DNA from: Bacteroidales bacterium
Lineage (GTDB): Bacteria; Bacteroidota; Bacteroidia; Bacteroidales; P3
Length of the DNA: 34,610 nt
Assembly (NCBI GenBank): GCA_031256055.1
Contig: JAIRRI010000170.1
Span: forward strand, 1 to 34,610
Direction of reading: 5' to 3'
Shown: positions 7,686 through 24,088 of the stretch, piece after piece
Layout: each line of letters starts with the position of its first letter
Numbering within the stretch: position 1 is the stretch's first letter
Made by a program: the position numbers and the translations under genes
The notes under the pieces: generated by a model
Database searches by the model: none
Seen by the model: only the letters and a program-made list of their open reading frames with translations
Told to the model about the DNA's origin: nothing

Positions 7686-7979
7686 ATGCAAACTCAAAGC
7701 GAATATCTGAATAAATTAAAGCAATTCAAACAGCAGTATTCTTCTGAATATGGCATTGAACGCATTGGCATTTTCGGTTCTGTGGCTCGTGGCGAACAAA
7801 CGGAACATAGCGATATAGATATTTATTACGAAGGCAAATCTCTCGGATTAAAGTCGCTTGTAGAATTTCCAATGGAACTTGAACGTTTTTTTGGTGCTCC
7901 TGTTGACGTGGTAAGAAAGAACAATAATCTACGCCCTTCTTTTCTAAAACGCATTATGCAAGACATTATTTATGCATAA
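7686..7979 (+). CDS. mntA: MntA-type minimal nucleotidyltransferase antitoxin
   Basis: A 97-residue minimal nucleotidyltransferase. The active-site signature GS-x10-DxD is complete: Gly31-Ser32 in IGIFGSVARGE and Asp43/Asp45 in SDIDIYYEG. In characterised MntA-HepT systems such proteins act as antitoxins by transferring AMP from ATP to a tyrosine near the HEPN active site. The C-terminal half (FPMELERFFGAPVDVVRKNN, then RPSFLKRIMQDIIYA) is typical of the family. Its stop lies inside the start of the next gene (overlap ATGCATAA, eight bases), the usual coupling for the pair. Located between purM and purN. Confidence 0.9.
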   Translation: MQTQSEYLNKLKQFKQQYSSEYGIERIGIFGSVARGEQTEHSDIDIYYEGKSLGLKSLVEFPMELERFFGAPVDVVRKNNNLRPSFLKRIMQDIIYA

Positions 7980-8343
7980 TAAAACGTTGATCATAGAGAC
8001 GCTGGAACAGGTAGAGCAGGTTATTGAAAATCTGCTCGAAAGTACGGACAATTTATCAGACATTAATGAGTTGTTAGAATCGGCAGACGGAATGTTGCGT
8101 TTGAATGGAATTTGCATGTGTTTTATCATTATTGGCGAAGAAATAAAGCGGATTGATAAATATACGGACGAAAAATTTCTTTCAAATTACCCATCAATTC
8201 CTTGGCAAAACATTAAAGGAATGCGCAATCGAATTGCACACGGTTATTTTGAAATTGATGCAGATGTTGTTTTTGACACTTTGAAAAATGATATTCCGCC
8301 ACTTCTTGCCGTTATAAAGCAGATGAAGAAAGACCTTTTATAA
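7972..8343 (+). CDS. hepT: HepT-like HEPN-domain RNase toxin (DUF86)
   Basis: An all-helical protein of 123 residues. Its HEPN catalytic motif R-x4-H-x-Y is intact: Arg85, His90 and Tyr92 in MRNRIAHGYFEID. Known HepT toxins are RNases, and the tyrosine of this motif is the residue adenylylated by MntA for neutralisation, so this pair has the residues needed for that mechanism. The N-terminal helices (LEQVEQVIENLLESTDNL) and CMCFIIIGEEIKRIDK are typical. It overlaps mntA by eight bases and ends one base before the purN start codon, tying toxin translation to a housekeeping gene. Activity is inferred from motif only. Confidence 0.9.
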   Translation: MHNKTLIIETLEQVEQVIENLLESTDNLSDINELLESADGMLRLNGICMCFIIIGEEIKRIDKYTDEKFLSNYPSIPWQNIKGMRNRIAHGYFEIDADVVFDTLKNDIPPLLAVIKQMKKDLL

Positions 8344-8344
8344 A

Positions 8345-8926
8345 TTGATTAAAAAACACATAGCAATCTTCGCCAGTGGAAACGGAAGTAATTTCGAAGC
8401 CATTGCACGCGCTTGCGCGAAAAACCGTGTAAATGCTGTGGTTGCGCTGTTGGTATGCGATAATCCAAACGCTTTTGTAATTCAAAGAGCGAAAAAATTT
8501 GATATTCCTGTTTTTGAATTTCAACCAAAAAACTATGCTTCTAAAGCCGATTACGAAACTGAAATCGTACAAATACTGAAGAAACACAATGTCGATTTGA
8601 TTTGCCTTGCCGGTTATATGCGCCTTGTATCGGATGTTTTGCTGAATGAATATGAAGGCAAAATCATCAACATCCATCCTTCGCTTTTGCCTGCTTTCAA
8701 AGGGCTGAACGCCATCCAACAAGCCTTTGAATACGGTGTAAAACTAACAGGCGTAACCACGCATTTTGTGGACAAAACTATGGATGGCGGAACAATCATC
8801 GGTCAAGTTGCTGTTCCAATCGGAAACTGCACTCTCGAAGAGTTGGAAACTCATATTCATGCCGTAGAGCACGAATTATATATTAACACCATAAATAAAA
8901 TTATCAATTATGAAAACATTACGTAG
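8345..8926 (+). CDS. purN: Phosphoribosylglycinamide formyltransferase (GART)
   Basis: PurN transfers a formyl group from 10-formyl-THF to GAR. The 193 residues match the family. Catalytic residues are visible: Asn109 and His111 in INIHPSLLPAFKG, and Asp147 in DKTMDGGTIIGQ; the 36-residue His-Asp spacing equals that of the E. coli enzyme. The N-terminal HIAIFASGNGSNFEAIA is the phosphate-binding loop. The only suitable start is TTG at 8345, one base after the hepT stop, which gives MIKKHIAIFASG. An unusual start directly behind a toxin gene suggests that the original upstream sequence was lost or replaced. It overlaps pspC by 17 bases. Confidence 0.95.
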   Translation: MIKKHIAIFASGNGSNFEAIARACAKNRVNAVVALLVCDNPNAFVIQRAKKFDIPVFEFQPKNYASKADYETEIVQILKKHNVDLICLAGYMRLVSDVLLNEYEGKIINIHPSLLPAFKGLNAIQQAFEYGVKLTGVTTHFVDKTMDGGTIIGQVAVPIGNCTLEELETHIHAVEHELYINTINKIINYENIT

Positions 8927-9545
8927 AAGTACGACAAACCGCGTGATTGGCGGAGTTTGCGGCGGAATTGCCGAGTATTTTGAGTTGGATCCGACTTTGA
9001 TCCGATTAGCCTTTCTTATCTTGGCATTTTTGGGCGGTGGCGGCATTTTGATCTATATCGTTGCATGGATTATTGTTCCTGAAAAACGCGCCGGTGACAA
9101 TATTCAAGATGCAGAACTAGTTTCGGAAGAGAAAAAACCGGAACCAAAAAAACCGGAAGATCAGTTGAAGGAAAACCTCAAAGAAGTTGAAAAAGAAATT
9201 AAAGAAATTGGAGAAAAAATTAGCAAAGAGGTTGAAAAAAAAGTTGAAAAAATGGAGAAAAAAGGTAATCAACGCTCCGGTTGGTTTGGTTATCTGTTAA
9301 TCTTTATAGGTGTTGTAAGTTTTCTGAAAATTTTCGGTTGGCTTCATTTTTCATGGCGCGGATTGTTGGATTTATGGCCTGTTCTTCTAATATTTTTAGG
9401 TGTTTCTATGATTCCGATGAAACAATGGTTGAGAAATATATTATTAACGCTTTGTGTGATTGGCGCATTGACTCTGTTGTTTTGCAATACGGGGTATTTC
9501 AACAAGAAGCAGTATCCTACATATTGGCATTGGAATTGTAGATAA
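8910..9545 (+). CDS. PspC-domain membrane protein with LiaF-like transmembrane tail
   Basis: A 211-residue membrane protein. Residues ~1-55 are a PspC domain (LRRSTTNRVIGGVCGGIAEY, then a helix rich in Leu/Ile and IVAWIIVPEKRA). A charged Lys/Glu-rich stretch at ~65-122 is likely helical or coiled coil (KEVEKEIKEIGEKISKEVEK). The C-terminal part has further hydrophobic helices (GYLLIFIGVVSFLKIFGW, LDLWPVLLIFLGVSMIP, ILLTLCVIGALTLLF), like the DUF5668/LiaF transmembrane region. PspC proteins act in envelope-stress responses at the inner membrane. It overlaps the purN end by 17 bases and lies 19 bases before purH, so it is transcribed with purine genes although no pathway link is known. Confidence 0.9.
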   Translation: MKTLRRSTTNRVIGGVCGGIAEYFELDPTLIRLAFLILAFLGGGGILIYIVAWIIVPEKRAGDNIQDAELVSEEKKPEPKKPEDQLKENLKEVEKEIKEIGEKISKEVEKKVEKMEKKGNQRSGWFGYLLIFIGVVSFLKIFGWLHFSWRGLLDLWPVLLIFLGVSMIPMKQWLRNILLTLCVIGALTLLFCNTGYFNKKQYPTYWHWNCR

Positions 9546-17180: not shown

Positions 17181-17206
17181 ATATATTTTGGTTTTTGATT
17201 GTTGAG

Positions 17207-17243
17207 AAAAAAACGAAATGCTGTATGGTGTTTCGTTTTTTTT
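17207..17243 (+). terminator. Intrinsic terminator after the subtilase gene
   Basis: AAAAAAACGAAA (17207-17218) pairs with TTTCGTTTTTTT after a 12-base loop, and the stem is followed by more T. The T tract runs straight into the next promoter box at 17246. Confidence 0.7.
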
Positions 17244-17253: not shown

Positions 17254-17274
17254 CAAAAAAATTTCACCCTGTCT

Positions 17275-17300
17275 GTAACTTTTTAGTAACCCACTTCGTC
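17275..17300 (+). promoter_or_regulatory. Putative ECF-sigma promoter of the sigma/anti-sigma operon (autoregulation)
   Basis: GTAAC (17275-17279) and CGTC (17297-17300) are separated by 17 bases, the classic -35/-10 layout for ECF sigma factors. The wider matches GTAACTTTTT and TTCGTCATA recur at 18794-18821 with identical spacing. Confidence 0.65.
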
Positions 17301-17326
17301 ATAGATATAAAAACCGGCAAATTTAA

Positions 17327-17815
17327 ATGACCGTAAACGAGTATAACGACTGTGTAAATCAATTCTCCGATGGTGTGTATCGGTTTGTACTTAAACATAT
17401 TAAGTGCAGCGATAGGGCTTCGGATGTGGTGCAGGATGCGTTTTTGAAAATGTGGGAAAAAGTGGAAACGATAAATTTCGAAAAAGCCAAATCGTATTTG
17501 TTCACGGCAGCGCACCATACGTTGGTTGATGAAGTTCGGAAGACTCAAATTCATCAACGCTTTATAACGGCGCAACCGGTAGAAAACGACTACGAAAACA
17601 CATCATACAGTGATGTTTATGAGGTTTTGAACAAAGCCATGGAACATCTGCCTGCCGACCAAAAATCCGTGTTGATGTTACGCGATTACGAAGGCTACAG
17701 TTACGAAGAAATCGCCGAAATCACAGGTCTGAACGAATCACAAGTGAAAGTATACATATTCAGAGCGCGAACATTTTTGAAGACTCATTTGGTACGAATT
17801 GAAAATTTAGTATGA
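17327..17815 (+). CDS. ECF-family RNA polymerase sigma factor (RpoE-like)
   Basis: A cytosolic sigma-70 family protein of 162 residues, the usual ECF length. Region 2 is seen in FVLKHIKCSDRASDVVQDAF, LKMWEKVETINFEKAKSYLF and TAAHHTLVDEVRK. Region 4 is seen in HLPADQKSVLMLRDYEGYSY, EEIAEITGLNESQVKVYIFR and ARTFLKTHL. It is followed with a four-base ATGA overlap by an anti-sigma gene, so synthesis is coupled. Two promoters precede it: a housekeeping -7 box and an ECF-type GTAAC-N17-CGTC site that also precedes the downstream GIN-domain gene, implying positive autoregulation. The signal is probably envelope-related, judging by the cluster. Confidence 0.95.
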   Translation: MTVNEYNDCVNQFSDGVYRFVLKHIKCSDRASDVVQDAFLKMWEKVETINFEKAKSYLFTAAHHTLVDEVRKTQIHQRFITAQPVENDYENTSYSDVYEVLNKAMEHLPADQKSVLMLRDYEGYSYEEIAEITGLNESQVKVYIFRARTFLKTHLVRIENLV

Positions 17816-18729
17816 ACATAAACCACGATAATTACGAGTCCATTTTAATGGATTACCTCGACGGAAATTTATCCGCTGCCGAGTGTGAGCAAGTGGAATT
17901 ATTTCTGCACCAAAATCCTGAAATAGCAAACCAAATCAGTGATTTTGAAGATGTAGTTTTGTCTTCAAACAACGAAATTATTTACGATCGAAAAGAAGAA
18001 TTACTAACTGCTACGTTGCCGAATCAAGAGTTTGAACACTGGGAAAATACACACCCCAAACTTCCGAAAACGTTGGTTTCTTATCCTCACAAACAAAGAC
18101 TACTCAAACCCGCAATTCGTCATATACCACAGTGGACGTGGTATGCAGCAGCATGTTTGGCAATTGTGGTACTTGTTGCGCGTCCGATGTTTGAAACGAC
18201 AACTGAAAATCCGGAATTGCCATCGATTGCGGTGTTGCCGATTGAAACGATTACGGACGAACCAATTGTGATTATGGAAATGATTGCGAATGACGACCGT
18301 AGGGATGTATTGCATACGCCCTCGCAAACAATTGCGACAAATGCCAACGAGGGCGTATGCAATACGCCCCTACAAGGTACATCATCGTCGGAAATTGTCA
18401 TCGAACGGATAATCCGTGAACATCTTGCTATCACAACAATTCAACCAATCCATAATTTCCAAATTTCACAAGAAACCCCAATAATCGAACAGATCCCTCA
18501 CAGCGTTTATCCCGAGCATGGTCTAGGGATTTGGGACGACAATTTTATTCAGGATGACAACATGGAAACCTCCCGTCGTGAACGATGGAATTTGGCTGTC
18601 AATGATAGAATTTTAGATCCGTTGAAAACAGGTATTCACAATGTGGTCAGGTATTTTTATAAACGAAAAACCGATGTGGAGTTGTTTTTGGAAGAGCACG
18701 AAATGCCGAGGTTTTTTGCGCAGAATTAA
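17812..18729 (+). CDS. Transmembrane anti-sigma factor, with a 75-bp in-frame repeat in its extracytoplasmic part
   Basis: A 305-residue single-pass membrane protein. The N-terminal cytosolic ~80 residues (ESILMDYLDGNLSAAECEQV, ELFLHQNPEIANQISDFED) resemble anti-sigma domains but lack the HxxxCxxC zinc motif. One membrane segment is at ~residues 104-122 (WTWYAAACLAIVVLVARPMF). The periplasmic part is low in recognisable domains. It includes a repeat-encoded stretch (DVLHTPSQTIATNANEGVCN, then TPLQ) at ~163-187 and a second repeat-derived patch (YPEHGLGIWDD). It presumably holds the sigma factor at the membrane until an envelope signal arrives; binding is inferred from the ATGA overlap and topology. 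It ends upstream of a palindrome that can serve as terminator. Confidence 0.85.
   Translation: MNINHDNYESILMDYLDGNLSAAECEQVELFLHQNPEIANQISDFEDVVLSSNNEIIYDRKEELLTATLPNQEFEHWENTHPKLPKTLVSYPHKQRLLKPAIRHIPQWTWYAAACLAIVVLVARPMFETTTENPELPSIAVLPIETITDEPIVIMEMIANDDRRDVLHTPSQTIATNANEGVCNTPLQGTSSSEIVIERIIREHLAITTIQPIHNFQISQETPIIEQIPHSVYPEHGLGIWDDNFIQDDNMETSRRERWNLAVNDRILDPLKTGIHNVVRYFYKRKTDVELFLEEHEMPRFFAQN
18299..18373. repeat. 75-bp composite inverted repeat inside the anti-sigma gene
   Basis: GTAGGGATGTATTGCATACG-CCCTCG (18299-18324) and CGAGGGCGTATGCAATACG-CCCCTAC (18348-18373) are 26-base inverted arms around a 23-base loop. The unit is exactly 25 codons long, so the frame is kept. The outer GTAGGG/CCCTAC-type ends match the 28-bp palindrome family. 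Confidence 0.85.
18509..18530. repeat. Diverged copy of the ATCCCGAGC...AGGGAT repeat inside the anti-sigma gene
   Basis: ATCCCGAGCATGGTCT followed by AGGGAT differs at three of 22 positions from the intergenic copy at 4215-4236. It is read in frame as part of YPEHGLGIW. Confidence 0.5.
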
Positions 18730-18747
18730 TGTAATTTACAAACATTT

Positions 18748-18784
18748 GTAGGGACGTTGCACGCAACGTCCCTACATTTTTTTT
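18748..18784. terminator. Palindrome family member acting as a likely terminator after the anti-sigma gene
   Basis: A 28-bp palindrome (GTAGGGACGTTGCA, then CGCAACGTCCCTAC, one central mismatch) is followed by A and nine T ending at 18784. A strong GC stem plus T tract is the form of an intrinsic terminator, 19 bases after the anti-sigma stop. Confidence 0.7.
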
Positions 18785-18793
18785 CAAATGGGT

Positions 18794-18819
18794 GTAACTT
18801 TTTGCAGGAGGTGTTCGTC
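18794..18819 (+). promoter_or_regulatory. Putative ECF-sigma promoter of the first GIN-domain gene
   Basis: GTAAC (18794-18798), 17 bases, then CGTC (18816-18819). It shares GTAACTTTTT and TTCGTCATA with the site at 17275. The gene's ATG is at 18867. Confidence 0.65.
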
Positions 18820-18866
18820 ATATGATTAAAACAACAAAAGATTAATCATTAAAAAAATCAAATACC

Positions 18867-19562
18867 ATGAAAAAATTATTTTTGACTACTGTACTCTGTG
18901 TTTTGTTTGCAAGTTTTTTAACTGCACAAAACCGTATTCCCACTGCCAACTTCACAAATATTGAAGTTAGAAACGCATTCAACGTTGTTTTAGTTCCATC
19001 GGACAAACATGAAGTTGTGATTCCTCAAGATTTGAAACTTCCCGATGGATTAACTCCAAAAGACATCGTTTCTGTGAAAAATGGCACGCTGACTATTGGC
19101 ATTCCCGAAAGTTACCTAAGAAAAAATAATCATCGGGTAAACAAAAAACAACCTTCGATTATGATTTATTTTAAATCTTTGGAGTCATTGACTCTATCCG
19201 GCGCTTCGTCTGCGGAATCGGAACAAACACTAAAAGGTTTATCCAAACTTCGACTTTCTGGTGCAAGCAATGCTAAAATAGATATGTCGGTAGACAAACT
19301 CAGTTCTGAAATAAGTGGTGCATCGAAGTTGGTTTTGACAGGACGTGTCAACCAACATAAAATCAATGCTTCCGGTGCATCAAATGCGAGTATGAAAGAT
19401 CTTAAAACTCAACAGGCTGATGTTCAGATTTCCGGCGCTTCATCAGCAAACATTTCAACTCAAAACGTATCGGGAAATGTTTCGGGAGCCAGTTCGTTGA
19501 AAGGAACTTGGAAAGAAAGCAATGTAAAAACAAGCGGCGCTTCATCTGTGAAACGTCGATAA
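18867..19562 (+). CDS. Exported GIN-domain (DUF2807) protein
   Basis: A 231-residue exported protein with signal peptide MKKLFLTTVLCVLFASFLTAQ. The body is a GIN/DUF2807 (head GIN) domain: NFTNIEVRNAFNVVLVPSDK, then a parallel beta-helix-like repeat in which LSGASS, LSGASN, ISGAS, ASGASN, ISGASS, VSGASS and TSGASS recur about every 15-20 residues. The repeat suggests stacked turns each capped by SGAS. The function of this family is unknown; a periplasmic or surface location is expected. It lies directly behind an ECF-type promoter shared with the sigma gene and is a paralogue of the N-terminal part of the next gene. Confidence 0.9.
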   Translation: MKKLFLTTVLCVLFASFLTAQNRIPTANFTNIEVRNAFNVVLVPSDKHEVVIPQDLKLPDGLTPKDIVSVKNGTLTIGIPESYLRKNNHRVNKKQPSIMIYFKSLESLTLSGASSAESEQTLKGLSKLRLSGASNAKIDMSVDKLSSEISGASKLVLTGRVNQHKINASGASNASMKDLKTQQADVQISGASSANISTQNVSGNVSGASSLKGTWKESNVKTSGASSVKRR

Positions 19563-19570
19563 AATTTGGC

Positions 19571-19614
19571 TTCGACTACGCTCAGCCACCAATCGGTCGT
19601 TGAGCGTAGCCGAA
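19571..19614. repeat. Inverted dispersed repeat between the two GIN genes
   Basis: TTCGACTACGCTCA (19571-19584) and TGAGCGTAGCCGAA (19601-19614) are inverted arms with one mismatch around a 16-base loop. The left arm contains the reverse complement of GAGCGTAGTCGA seen at 4220-4231. Confidence 0.7.
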
Positions 19615-19659: not shown

Positions 19660-21168
19660 ATGAAACGTTTATTATTTACAACCGCATTATGTGTATTATT
19701 TGCAAATTTTGCAATTGCACAAACACGAACTTTAGACTTGGGAGAATTCTCTAAAATCAGCGTCGGACAGGCCTTTGATGTGCTGTTAATTCCATCAAAT
19801 CGTTACGAAATTATCGTTCCTGAAAGTATAAGTGACGATGTGTTTCGAATTGTCGATAGTTCATTGAGAATACACGATCCGAGTCAGGTATCAAACCAAA
19901 ACAGAAATGAAGAACCGATTATTGTTCTTTTCGCTTCATTGAAACAATTGACTGTTTCGGGAGCTGCAAAAGTTTGGTCGGAAGGAGAAATAGTCGGCAA
20001 TCACTTTTCAAGACTTCAGCTTTCCGGAGCAAGTAACACAACATTAACTTTATTGGGTTCTGACATCGTATCAATTGTATCCGGAGCTGCGAATTTGAAT
20101 ATATCCGGAACAGTCAGAAAACACCAAATTCAAGGTTCCGGAGCTGCTAACATCCATGCAGAAAAATTGGATGCTCGAACAACAACTGTTTTCTTATCCG
20201 GTGCTGCAAACGCAAGAGTATTTACGCAAGTCGCAAATGGAAGACTTTCCGGAGCCAGTTCTTTGCGTCTCAATTCGGAGGCACAAAATCATGTAAGTCA
20301 AACTCGCGGAACATCTATTAGACGAATCGACAACATGGCTCAAAATTTTGAATCCACTCGGACTCAAGACATGCAAGAATTACAAGATGAATTGGACGAA
20401 GGGCTACAAGAATTACAAAGAGAGTTGAGCGAATTAAGTGAAGAACTGAACGAATGGTCCAAAAATTTTGGGAACACTACCGTGACAGTCAATTCTTCGG
20501 GTAAAATTAATGTCAACACAAATAATTCTCCAAAGCGTAGAAAATTCAACCCTTCATACGGTTATTTCGATTTCGGATTTAGCAGTTACGGGCAAGATTT
20601 TTTTCAACACACCTTGCCGGAAGACTACAAAAATATGGAACTTAAACAAAACGTATCGTTTGCTTTCAATATGAATTTGTTTCAATATGGCGTTCGTCTT
20701 GGAAGAAGTGATTTTGGTATCGGAACAGGAGTTGGTATTGGTTGGAATACTTATAGATTTTTGGATGAATCCGTAATTCCGAGTGGAGATAAGGATCTTG
20801 GTATATTTGTGATAGAGCCTTACGATGGAGACGAAGATCGGAGGTATAGAAAAAGTTTGATACGAACAACGTGGCTGAAAGTGCCTTTGTATGTGAATTA
20901 CCAACAAAAAAGATTTTTTGCAACTGCAGGTGTTGTCGGAAATGTGAGATTAGGTGCAAGCAGTAAACAAGTTTATTCATTTAACGGAAGAAACCGCGAC
21001 AAAACGAGAGATAACTTTTATCTCAATGCATTTCGTGCCGATGCGGAAGTGCGTTTCGGCTACAGAAATGTTGGTTTCTTTGCAACGTATAGTTTAACCG
21101 AACTGTTTTTGAAAAATCGTGGTCCGGAATTGATACCGTTTTCCTTTGGAATTACGTTAGGCGTGTAA
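19660..21168 (+). CDS. GIN-domain (DUF2807) protein fused to a coiled coil and an outer-membrane beta-barrel
   Basis: A 502-residue protein. Signal peptide MKRLLFTTALCVLFANFAIAQ is nearly the same as in the preceding gene, as is the GIN domain at ~22-220 (FSKISVGQAFDVLLIPSNRY, with VSGAAK, LSGASN, VSGAAN, LSGAAN, LSGASS repeats). It is followed by a charged heptad region of ~40 residues (MQELQDELDEGLQELQREL), and a C-terminal ~180-residue porin-like barrel with alternating aromatic strands (FNMNLFQYGVRLGRSDFGIG, VGFFATYSLTELF). The start at ATG 19660 is preferred because it begins the signal peptide. Tandem duplication with an added barrel is apparent. Confidence 0.88.
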   Translation: MKRLLFTTALCVLFANFAIAQTRTLDLGEFSKISVGQAFDVLLIPSNRYEIIVPESISDDVFRIVDSSLRIHDPSQVSNQNRNEEPIIVLFASLKQLTVSGAAKVWSEGEIVGNHFSRLQLSGASNTTLTLLGSDIVSIVSGAANLNISGTVRKHQIQGSGAANIHAEKLDARTTTVFLSGAANARVFTQVANGRLSGASSLRLNSEAQNHVSQTRGTSIRRIDNMAQNFESTRTQDMQELQDELDEGLQELQRELSELSEELNEWSKNFGNTTVTVNSSGKINVNTNNSPKRRKFNPSYGYFDFGFSSYGQDFFQHTLPEDYKNMELKQNVSFAFNMNLFQYGVRLGRSDFGIGTGVGIGWNTYRFLDESVIPSGDKDLGIFVIEPYDGDEDRRYRKSLIRTTWLKVPLYVNYQQKRFFATAGVVGNVRLGASSKQVYSFNGRNRDKTRDNFYLNAFRADAEVRFGYRNVGFFATYSLTELFLKNRGPELIPFSFGITLGV

Positions 21169-21205
21169 AATTGGTCGATATTGGATTTGTTGTTTCGACT
21201 ATTTG

Positions 21206-21230
21206 GGGGCGCAAAATTTTGCGCCCCTAC
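21206..21230. repeat. Palindromic hairpin with CCCCTAC end
   Basis: GGGGCGCAAAA directly followed by TTTTGCGCCCC is a perfect 22-bp palindrome (21206-21227), followed by TAC as in the GTAGRG palindrome family, though the left GTA is missing. It lies in the 121-base gap before the receptor gene and may terminate the upstream unit. Confidence 0.6.
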
Positions 21231-21264
21231 TTTATAAACTTTATGAATTTTATAAACTTTTTTG

Positions 21265-21272
21265 TATCTTTG
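21265..21272 (+). promoter_or_regulatory. -7 box of the TonB-receptor-like gene
   Basis: TATCTTTG preceded by a T run and G. It is placed 17 bases before the ATG at 21290, so the leader is short. Upstream is an imperfect direct repeat of TTTATAAACTTT. Confidence 0.65.
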
Positions 21273-21289
21273 TACCCAAAATAAACCCA

Positions 21290-24088
21290 ATGAAAAAAAT
21301 CCTCTTATCATCCATCGCGCTTTTCTCTGTATTCATCATGAAAAGCCAAGACATCACAGGTACGTGGAACGGCACGCTCTCCGTTCAAGGCCACAATTTA
21401 CGAATCGTATTTCACATTTCCAAAGATGGCGATACCTACAAAGCTACAATGGATAGTCCAGACCAAGGTGCGAACGGATTACCCGTGAGTTCCGTAACAT
21501 TTGAGGACAACAAAATTAAAATGGAAATCAGCATTCCACAAGCACCACCGGCAGAATATGCAGGCGAACTGAAAGAAAACACGATAACGGGAAATTTTAG
21601 GCAAATGGGATTTTCCTTTCCGTTGAATTTGACCCGTAGCGCACAATCAGGTAGTACGAGCGGATTTATACGCGGTCGTTTGTTCGACTCACAAACGAGA
21701 GAATCGTTGCCTTTTTCAACTGTCGCGTTACTTAGAGATGCGGACAGCAGTCTTGTAACCGGCGTCGCTACTGACGAAGACGGACGTTTTGTATTGGAAA
21801 ACTTGCGTGATGGACACTATCGTTTGAGAGTTACAACCATCGGTTATCATCCGTATATCAGCCATACCATTGAATTACGAAGAGGTAATAATCGTTTGGA
21901 TTTAGGTAGTTTTTTCCTCAATCCGAGTAGTACAGAACTTATGGGAGTGGAGATTATTGCAACACGTCCTGTTCTCGAACAACAAGCCGGAAAATTAGTG
22001 TTTAATGTTGCCGAATCCACCACAAGCGTTGGCGACAATGCGTTGGAAACGTTGAAAAAATTTCCCGGCGTAACAGTTGATAACGATGATAATATTTCGT
22101 TGAACGGAAATTCAAGCGTTTTAGTAATGATTGATGGCCGTCCGACACATTTATCGGGTGCGCAATTGGCGAATTTGTTAAAAAGTTTGCCGTCATCAGA
22201 CATCGATAGAATCGAAGCCATTGATAATCCTCCGGCGAGATACGAAGCGGAAGGTATTGGCGGAATTTTGAACATCAGAACCAAACGCACACGAATGATG
22301 GGCTATAGCGGAACCGTTCACGCAGGAGCACGGTATCACGAAAAATTTAATCACGACCAAGGATTTGATTTGAATTTTAGAACTAACAAATTCACCGTAT
22401 TTGCAAGTTTGAATATATCGAATAGCAACAGTCCTTCGGGAATGACCGGATTCACTAACTTTCCGGACGGATCTCGCTGGGAAATGAACAAAGGTAAAAA
22501 CGAGGATTGGACTACGAACCAAAATAATCGCTTTATATCAGGACGAGCCGGGTTTGACTATTATATCAATCCTCGAAATATCTTATCACTCTCTTACCGA
22601 CTTCAAGATGGACAAAGTAAAGTGTCCGGCTATACAAATACTCGACAATTTACACCGGATGACATAATCCAATCATCGTTTCGTCAAGGATTCAAAATGA
22701 AAAATGAATGGGGAAACCAAAATCTCAATTTGAATTATCAAAACATTTTTGATTCGGCCAATAATCGTCAATTTTTCATTGACGCAAGTTGGGTAAGAAA
22801 TATGCATTCCGGTGGAGGAAACAGTGAAGTTCTCTATTATTTGGGCGATTTTGCTATTCCATTGCCCGACTTGAATGATCCGTATGAACTCAATGTACGA
22901 TTACCATCCAATATTTTTTCCATCAAAGCAGATTTGGAATATCCGCTAAATAAGGAAACTAAAATAGAAACCGGTGCAAGACATAGTTATGTGAACAACG
23001 ATAATAATCAACGCTATTACAACGAAGGAGTTTTGAATCCGACGATGTCTGATCATTTCGTTTACACTGAAAATATCACGGCATTTTACGGTATGATTAA
23101 TCACAAGTTTTCAGAAAGAACGAGTGTGGAAGCCGGATTGAGAGGAGAATACACCGCTTGGAAAGGTAATAATAAATCCATTAAAGAAGTGGTAGACGGC
23201 AATTATTTCGGACTGTTTCCATCGTTGAATGCCAATCAAAAATTAACTCAAAAAACAGGACTAAATTTTTCATACAGTTATCGTTTAACACGTCCGCATT
23301 ACGCGAATTTGAATCCACTTATAACCAGAAATCTCGCGTACGAATTCAATGAAGGTAATCCGAATTTGAATCCTGAATATTCGCATATTGTCAGATTGGC
23401 TTATACGTTCAATCACGTGCCAATCGTTCGATTGTCTTATGCACGTACGGATGGCGATATTCGTCGTATTACACGTTTTGATGGAGATACAGTACGGAAT
23501 CGCCCTGAAAATCTTGGAACAAATGATGCTTTCGGTTTTAACTTAATGTTTCAACGGACATTCTTTGACAAATGGCGTTTGTTGATAACAGGTGGTGGTG
23601 AGTGGTCAAGATCGCATTTCAAATATGATACTGTTGTTGGTGATCCTCTTACTTCTATTTCTGAAACAAGAGATTTTTTCCGAGCCAGTTATTATATTTC
23701 CAACGATATCACGCTTTCAAAAACCATGAGTATGGATATCAACAGTTGGGGTATGTTTCCGCAAAAACGCTTGTTTACAAAGCATGCCGGAATGTATTCT
23801 GTAAATATAGGATTGAGAAAAAGTTTTTTTGACAGAAAGTTAACCGCAACATTGAGTCTCAATGATATTTTCAACGCTGCGAACAAATGGACAAATGACA
23901 CAGAGCTCCCGACTGGACAACGTGATTATCGAGAATATATTTGGCCAAGTCGTTCGGTTTCCGTGCGATTGAGTTATCGTTTCGGAAAAGGTAATGTTCA
24001 AACCCGCCGAATGCGAGATGCCGCAAACGAAGAAGCTGGACGCATGGGTAGCGGCGATGGTGGCCAAGGCGGCGGAATGGGACAGTAA
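21290..24088 (+). CDS. TonB-dependent-receptor-like outer-membrane beta-barrel protein (OMP_b-brl_3 type)
   Basis: A 932-residue outer-membrane protein. Signal peptide MKKILLSSIALFSVFIMKSQ gives the chosen start. Residues ~21-120 form an unusual beta-rich N-terminal domain (DITGTWNGTLSVQGHNLRIV, ENTITGNFRQMGFSFPLNLT). A carboxypeptidase-like regulatory domain follows (FIRGRLFDSQTRESLPFSTV, DEDGRFVLENLRDGHYRLRV). Then comes a plug (NALETLKKFPGVTVDNDDN, VLVMIDGRPTHLSGAQLANL, RIEAIDNPPARYEAEGIGGI) and a long barrel with AYEFNEGNPNLNPEYSH. The C-terminus is Gly-rich (GDGGQGGGMGQ). No SusD partner is present, and this barrel type is not linked to a particular substrate. It may belong to the envelope regulon but has its own promoter. 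Confidence 0.9.
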   Translation: MKKILLSSIALFSVFIMKSQDITGTWNGTLSVQGHNLRIVFHISKDGDTYKATMDSPDQGANGLPVSSVTFEDNKIKMEISIPQAPPAEYAGELKENTITGNFRQMGFSFPLNLTRSAQSGSTSGFIRGRLFDSQTRESLPFSTVALLRDADSSLVTGVATDEDGRFVLENLRDGHYRLRVTTIGYHPYISHTIELRRGNNRLDLGSFFLNPSSTELMGVEIIATRPVLEQQAGKLVFNVAESTTSVGDNALETLKKFPGVTVDNDDNISLNGNSSVLVMIDGRPTHLSGAQLANLLKSLPSSDIDRIEAIDNPPARYEAEGIGGILNIRTKRTRMMGYSGTVHAGARYHEKFNHDQGFDLNFRTNKFTVFASLNISNSNSPSGMTGFTNFPDGSRWEMNKGKNEDWTTNQNNRFISGRAGFDYYINPRNILSLSYRLQDGQSKVSGYTNTRQFTPDDIIQSSFRQGFKMKNEWGNQNLNLNYQNIFDSANNRQFFIDASWVRNMHSGGGNSEVLYYLGDFAIPLPDLNDPYELNVRLPSNIFSIKADLEYPLNKETKIETGARHSYVNNDNNQRYYNEGVLNPTMSDHFVYTENITAFYGMINHKFSERTSVEAGLRGEYTAWKGNNKSIKEVVDGNYFGLFPSLNANQKLTQKTGLNFSYSYRLTRPHYANLNPLITRNLAYEFNEGNPNLNPEYSHIVRLAYTFNHVPIVRLSYARTDGDIRRITRFDGDTVRNRPENLGTNDAFGFNLMFQRTFFDKWRLLITGGGEWSRSHFKYDTVVGDPLTSISETRDFFRASYYISNDITLSKTMSMDINSWGMFPQKRLFTKHAGMYSVNIGLRKSFFDRKLTATLSLNDIFNAANKWTNDTELPTGQRDYREYIWPSRSVSVRLSYRFGKGNVQTRRMRDAANEEAGRMGSGDGGQGGGMGQ

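Follow-up and report, generated by a model that had tools for sequence, protein, structure and literature searches.

A shared two-box motif predicts an autoregulated ECF sigma factor and GIN (DUF2807) targets in a Bacteroidota genome

What switches on the GIN (DUF2807) genes that lie next to an ECF sigma factor gene? The question is raised by one contig (C200; 34,610 nucleotides, here called the window) of a draft genome of 2.1 Mb in 213 contigs, whose source lineage is judged from its genes and relatives to be Bacteroidota, probably Bacteroidales. The original prediction placed matched promoters before the sigma gene and before the first GIN gene, and both sites are indeed present: their GTAAC-N17-CGTC cores occupy 17275-17300 and 18794-18819 on the plus strand, with 17 bases between the boxes, and the window holds no other core matches with a spacing of 15-19. 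In full, both sites read TGTAACTTTTT-N10-TTCGTCATA (17274-17303 and 18793-18822); the search string first proposed, with N12 between the long blocks, therefore misses both.

The first site, P1 (TGTAAC-N17-CGTCATA), follows a terminator-like intrinsic hairpin and T-run (17206-17243) that closes an upstream subtilase gene, and it lies 23 nt before the ATG of the sigma factor gene (17327-17815, 162 aa). The latter overlaps by 4 nt with the gene of a predicted membrane-anchored anti-sigma factor (17812-18729, 305 aa), which is separated from the GIN genes by a second terminator-like hairpin and T-run (18747-18784). Thus, the GIN unit likely needs a promoter of its own, and the second site, P2, stands 44 nt before the ATG of its first gene, which encodes a GIN protein of 231 aa with a hydrophobic, signal-like N-terminus (18867-19562). 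This gene is followed by a second GIN gene (19660-21168, 502 aa) and by a gene for an outer-membrane protein with CarboxypepD_reg and OMP_b-brl_3 domains (21203-24088, true start likely ATG 21290), all of these features being on the plus strand. We infer from their sequence that P1 and P2 are promoters. The region also contains a palindromic element with 26-nt arms (18299-18373), in frame within the variable extracytoplasmic linker of the anti-sigma gene, a linker that is strongly divergent among congeners; similar palindromes occur at 18734-18789 and 19571-19614.

The sigma protein consists of sigma-70 regions 2 and 4 only (Sigma70_r2, residues 10-74; Sigma70_r4_2, residues 101-151; profile search), and as a short two-region protein whose profile matches solved ECF structures it belongs to the ECF sigma factors. 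Its nearest family model is NF058625 (sigma_PG0214/GFO_1088), at 128.8 bits against a curated cut-off of 130. Membership in this family was rejected on that score, and since another protein of the same genome, encoded on contig C76, scores well above the cut-off (168), the window sigma is best regarded as a sister of NF058625. Its partner has a helical N-terminal domain on the predicted cytoplasmic side and one transmembrane helix at about residues 108-127, which, with a gene adjoining that of the sigma factor, is the layout of a class I membrane anti-sigma factor. Moreover, a gene for a single-transmembrane protein lies directly 3' of the sigma gene in 68 of 69 loci. The profile match to zf-HC2 is weak, the fold search returned one meaningless match and a PDB sequence search gave no informative match; position, topology and conservation are what suggest that the 305-aa protein is the anti-sigma factor.

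Both GIN proteins match the DUF2807 profile and, together with the beta-helix fold, this places them in the DUF2807/GIN (Toastrack) group. In the AlphaFold model of the second (pLDDT 84.8), an N-terminal hydrophobic helix is followed by a beta-helix (residues 22-223), a helix of 39 residues (226-264) and a C-terminal beta-barrel of outer-membrane type. Foldseek pairs the GIN head with 3pet (TM 0.82 over the target) and other DUF2807 structures, and its lower-ranked matches include OmpT/OmpA-type barrels. The protein aligns along nearly its whole length with a GIN-barrel protein of the phylum (E 4e-43) and through its C-terminus with a bare barrel; by these alignments its gene is a relative of the third gene of a cluster conserved in the phylum. 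From the model and the fold matches, the GIN-barrel is predicted to sit in the outer membrane.

A genome-wide motif search had been proposed as a check on the prediction, and its outcome depends on the length of the motif. The bare core is at background, with 24 matches to TGTAACN15-18CGTC in the whole 2.1-Mb genome versus 21 for the reversed control and at least two bare cores in 9 of 100 shuffled windows; GTAAC/CGTC was therefore rejected as a genome-wide marker and is not diagnostic. The extended form far exceeds what chance would give: allowing up to two mismatches, four sites occur in 2.1 Mb, three of them exact, and the exact long motif is found only before the sigma gene, the GIN unit and an ABC operon. 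The four best places within three mismatches are the two window sites, an exact site on contig C2, where a MacB-like ABC operon (genes for an ABC ATPase, two permeases of MacB/FtsX type, an unassigned exported protein, HlyD and OEP) starts 18 nt downstream, and a site with two mismatches on contig C134, where an S41-type peptidase gene starts 25 nt downstream. The motif does not accompany every GIN gene: the third one of the source genome, lipoprotein-like and located on contig C55, has no site. The S41 peptidase gene is reduced to a broken fragment in one near genome (G006, C13:16051-16589).

Conservation was assessed in a near set of six genomes, comprising the source genome, four congeners and a single sister-genus genome, whose sigma factor is 60% identical. 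These genomes hold 30 matches to TGTAAC-N17-CGTCNTA versus 3 for the reversed control, mostly 1-55 nt ahead of a start codon, and the sigma gene is preceded by the motif in all six. About 9 of 13 GIN (DUF2807) transcription units carry it as well (hypergeometric p about 2e-21, assuming 1750 genes per genome); in G018, each of three GIN genes has a separate copy. The motif also precedes PspC-LiaF fusions in three near genomes (G006, G029 and G007), genes for an ABC ATPase and for CarboxypepD/TonB-type outer-membrane proteins and, in G029, a relative (77% identical) of the outer-membrane protein gene at 21203-24088. The source genome has a PspC-LiaF fusion gene at 8910-9545 of the window, between purN-like and purH-like genes of a purine biosynthesis cluster; no ECF motif was found before it, nor was any motif-bearing PspC gene found elsewhere in this genome. 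The same purine cluster holds a nucleotidyltransferase and HepT-like pair of the MntA/HepT toxin-antitoxin type (7686-8343), and a related PspC-LiaF copy with an internal stop lies upstream of the G006 sigma gene (C11:34906-35550). In 15 genomes of the family without a sigma match, the motif occurs only twice, versus twice in the control, and one of these two matches (G043) marks the promoter position of a sigma gene truncated by a contig end; here the motif led to the cut gene and thus predicted it. Genomes from other genera of this family keep just one or two exact sites, and a wide regulon is therefore visible in no more than two genera.

Further afield, the upstream regions of 80 sigma relatives were read (49-62% identical; Bacteroidales, Flavobacteriales, other Bacteroidota and Chlorobiota, by record title). 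An exact TGTAAC-N16/17-CGTC lies within 200 nt upstream of 66 of the 80 and a copy with at most one mismatch upstream of 79, compared with 0 in 100 Markov shuffles. The consensus over these loci is TGTAACTTTT-N12/13-CGTCnTA. Altogether, the 80 loci (0.9 Mb) contain 99 exact sites versus 2.7 expected, 65 of which precede the sigma gene and 31 other genes. Most of the 31 stand before the cluster's third gene, which encodes a barrel protein of OMP_b-brl_2 type and in 7 cases adds a GIN head; in about 30 of the 80 loci this outer-membrane beta-barrel gene, whether it includes a GIN head or lacks one, is preceded by a separate motif. Among the non-sigma genes, the motif precedes 7 of 12 GIN genes versus 24 of 728 others (Fisher p 8e-8). 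On the sigma tree, the -10 variants CGTC, TGTC, CGTA and CGAC fall into clusters (14 changes versus 27 in shuffles), a pattern that fits co-evolution and to which kinship contributes too, so that it is partly expected. A common spacing of 16 or 17 for sigma and target within one locus was considered and discarded, being inconsistent across the loci inspected.

A two-box motif common to the sigma gene and its targets, and conserved at orthologues, is the sequence signature of an autoregulated ECF promoter. Both autoregulation, with the motif upstream of the sigma gene in six of six near genomes and in nearly all phylum relatives, and GIN targeting, with GIN genes repeatedly carrying their own copy in the genus and beyond, are thus well supported at the sequence level, as the original prediction had proposed. 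It is highly probable, in our judgement, that the sigma factor reads P1 and P2 and thereby governs an autoregulated sigma/anti-sigma pair, a GIN/outer-membrane unit and a small envelope regulon. P1 would drive the sigma/anti-sigma operon in a positive autoregulation restrained by the membrane-anchored anti-sigma factor, and P2 a separate unit of GIN, GIN-barrel and probably the outer-membrane protein gene at 21203. An envelope signal would inactivate the anti-sigma factor; once free, the sigma factor would induce the operon that encodes it, the GIN/outer-membrane proteins, the MacB-HlyD-TolC-like exporter and the S41 peptidase. In close relatives, PspC-LiaF proteins would be induced as well. 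The outcome would be a PspA-free, Lia/Psp-like regulon for envelope maintenance. As for the envelope-stress regulon of the original prediction, envelope-type targets were found, and the stress role itself, which they fit, is put forward as plausible.

One may argue that the regulon is real but serves surface adhesion or colonisation, the GIN proteins being adhesins and the exporter and outer-membrane proteins remodelling the surface. In P. gingivalis, biofilm and attachment are reported to need the DUF2807 protein PGN_1547, described as an adhesin (PMC10949514), and the GIN-barrel of the window is predicted in the outer membrane. DUF2807 adhesins (PGN_1547; structures 3pet, 4opw and 3ljy) share the fold of its GIN head by Foldseek; the second GIN protein of the window has in addition a helix and a C-terminal barrel. 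However, in relatives PspC-LiaF fusions and a MacB/TolC-type exporter stand under the same motif, and the literature links the toast-rack superfamily, of which DUF2807 is part, with the membrane stress systems Psp/Lia (PMC11237479). We give the adhesion role roughly one chance in four, and the two roles are not mutually exclusive.

A lesser alternative keeps P1 and P2 as ECF promoters and has them read mainly by another ECF sigma factor, or by several overlapping ones, with the neighbouring sigma gene as one target among others. Overlapping promoter use is common among ECF sigma factors, as with SigX, SigW and SigM of B. subtilis, and in most of 30 loci the sister family NF058625 has TGTAACAAA-N-CGTC, built on the TGTAAC/CGTC core as well, upstream of its own genes, so that another ECF could read some of the sites. 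The source genome itself has an NF058625-type paralogue on C76. Yet this paralogue has no good copy of the motif within 200 nt upstream, its closest core-like site being TGTCAC...CGTC with one mismatch about 540 nt upstream; moreover, genomes that lack a window-type sigma have almost no copies of the long form, and a site almost always stands before that sigma gene. We therefore hold this alternative to be improbable, while exclusive recognition of P1 and P2 by the window sigma is, given the core shared with sister ECFs, something that we infer. Downstream of the paralogue, which is on the minus strand (2502-2996), come a putative anti-sigma gene and one for a small exported DUF4252-like protein, a gene order like that of P. 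gingivalis PG0214-0216. In other genomes of the class, NF058625 sigmas have a highly regular promoter of their own, TGTAACAAA-N-CGTCTTG with a spacing of 16, and NF058625 is apparently, on this sequence evidence, a second phylum-wide autoregulated ECF family. A P. gingivalis mutant under peroxide shows a rise of about 10-fold in its sigma/putative anti-sigma pair PG0214-PG0215 (PMC10101095). A reading of the motif as an operator bound by a conventional transcription factor, or as a repeat that has no regulatory role, is very improbable: any conserved box could be an operator, but this one has two asymmetric boxes with the 16-17 spacing typical of ECF promoters, points to the next gene at short distance and is linked to the sigma gene itself, and its differing spacers and flanks show that it is not a mobile repeat.

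Among known systems, B. subtilis SigW/RsiW and E. coli RpoE resemble the window in having a small two-domain sigma factor, an overlapping gene for a membrane-anchored regulator, an own upstream promoter with an AAC-type -35 and a CGTC-type -10, and a small regulon. In contrast, the window has an exported GIN/beta-barrel target set and an anti-sigma N-terminus with no clear zinc-finger match. In B. subtilis, PspC and toast-rack genes (yvlABCD) are also under the control of SigW, and thus the window system would be a further case of such ECF control, in another phylum. What is distinctive compared with these ECF-controlled toast-rack systems is the predicted outer-membrane anchoring of GIN proteins. 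DUF2807 is one of three Pfam models unified as Toastrack, and the authors of that work record ABC transporters close to Toastrack genes as well as an operon-linked sigma factor (PMC11237479). The likeness to Psp/Lia lies in ABC exporters and, in the relatives G006, G029 and G007, PspC-LiaF fusions as partners of Toastrack proteins; the differences are that control is predicted to be by an ECF sigma factor instead of LiaRS or PspF, and that no PspA was found in the six near genomes, with control genomes positive. Furthermore, most Toastrack proteins are proposed to be intracellular (PMC11237479), whereas the GIN proteins of the window have signal-like N-termini and one carries an outer-membrane barrel. 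Among the papers searched, none brought ECF sigma factors together with DUF2807 or PspC and ECF terms together with Bacteroidetes, and none gave the GTAAC motif for ECF sigma factors of Bacteroidetes.

DUF2807/GIN proteins occur widely across Bacteroidota, and most of them are unexplained. The predicted promoter links them to PspC-LiaF, to a tripartite exporter and to a conserved barrel of the outer membrane, and reveals a toast-rack branch with signal-like N-termini and an outer-membrane barrel. As a phylum-conserved sequence, it makes the predicted regulon readable from many genomes and testable in cultivable relatives such as Alkaliflexus, Marinifilum, Labilibacter and Carboxylicivirga; Alkaliflexus imshenetskii and Marinifilum flexuosum are examples in which the locus is arranged as in the window. 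More speculatively, and with something under a one-in-three chance, the sigma factor, the anti-sigma factor and an outer-membrane GIN-barrel or bare barrel with a sigma-dependent promoter might form a three-part sensing circuit conserved in Bacteroidota, in which the outer-membrane GIN protein would feed back on the anti-sigma factor and PspC-LiaF and MacB-TolC would act as effectors. Such a circuit would be a counterpart of Psp/Lia that is driven by an ECF sigma factor, has no PspA and places its toast-rack domains outside the cytoplasm.
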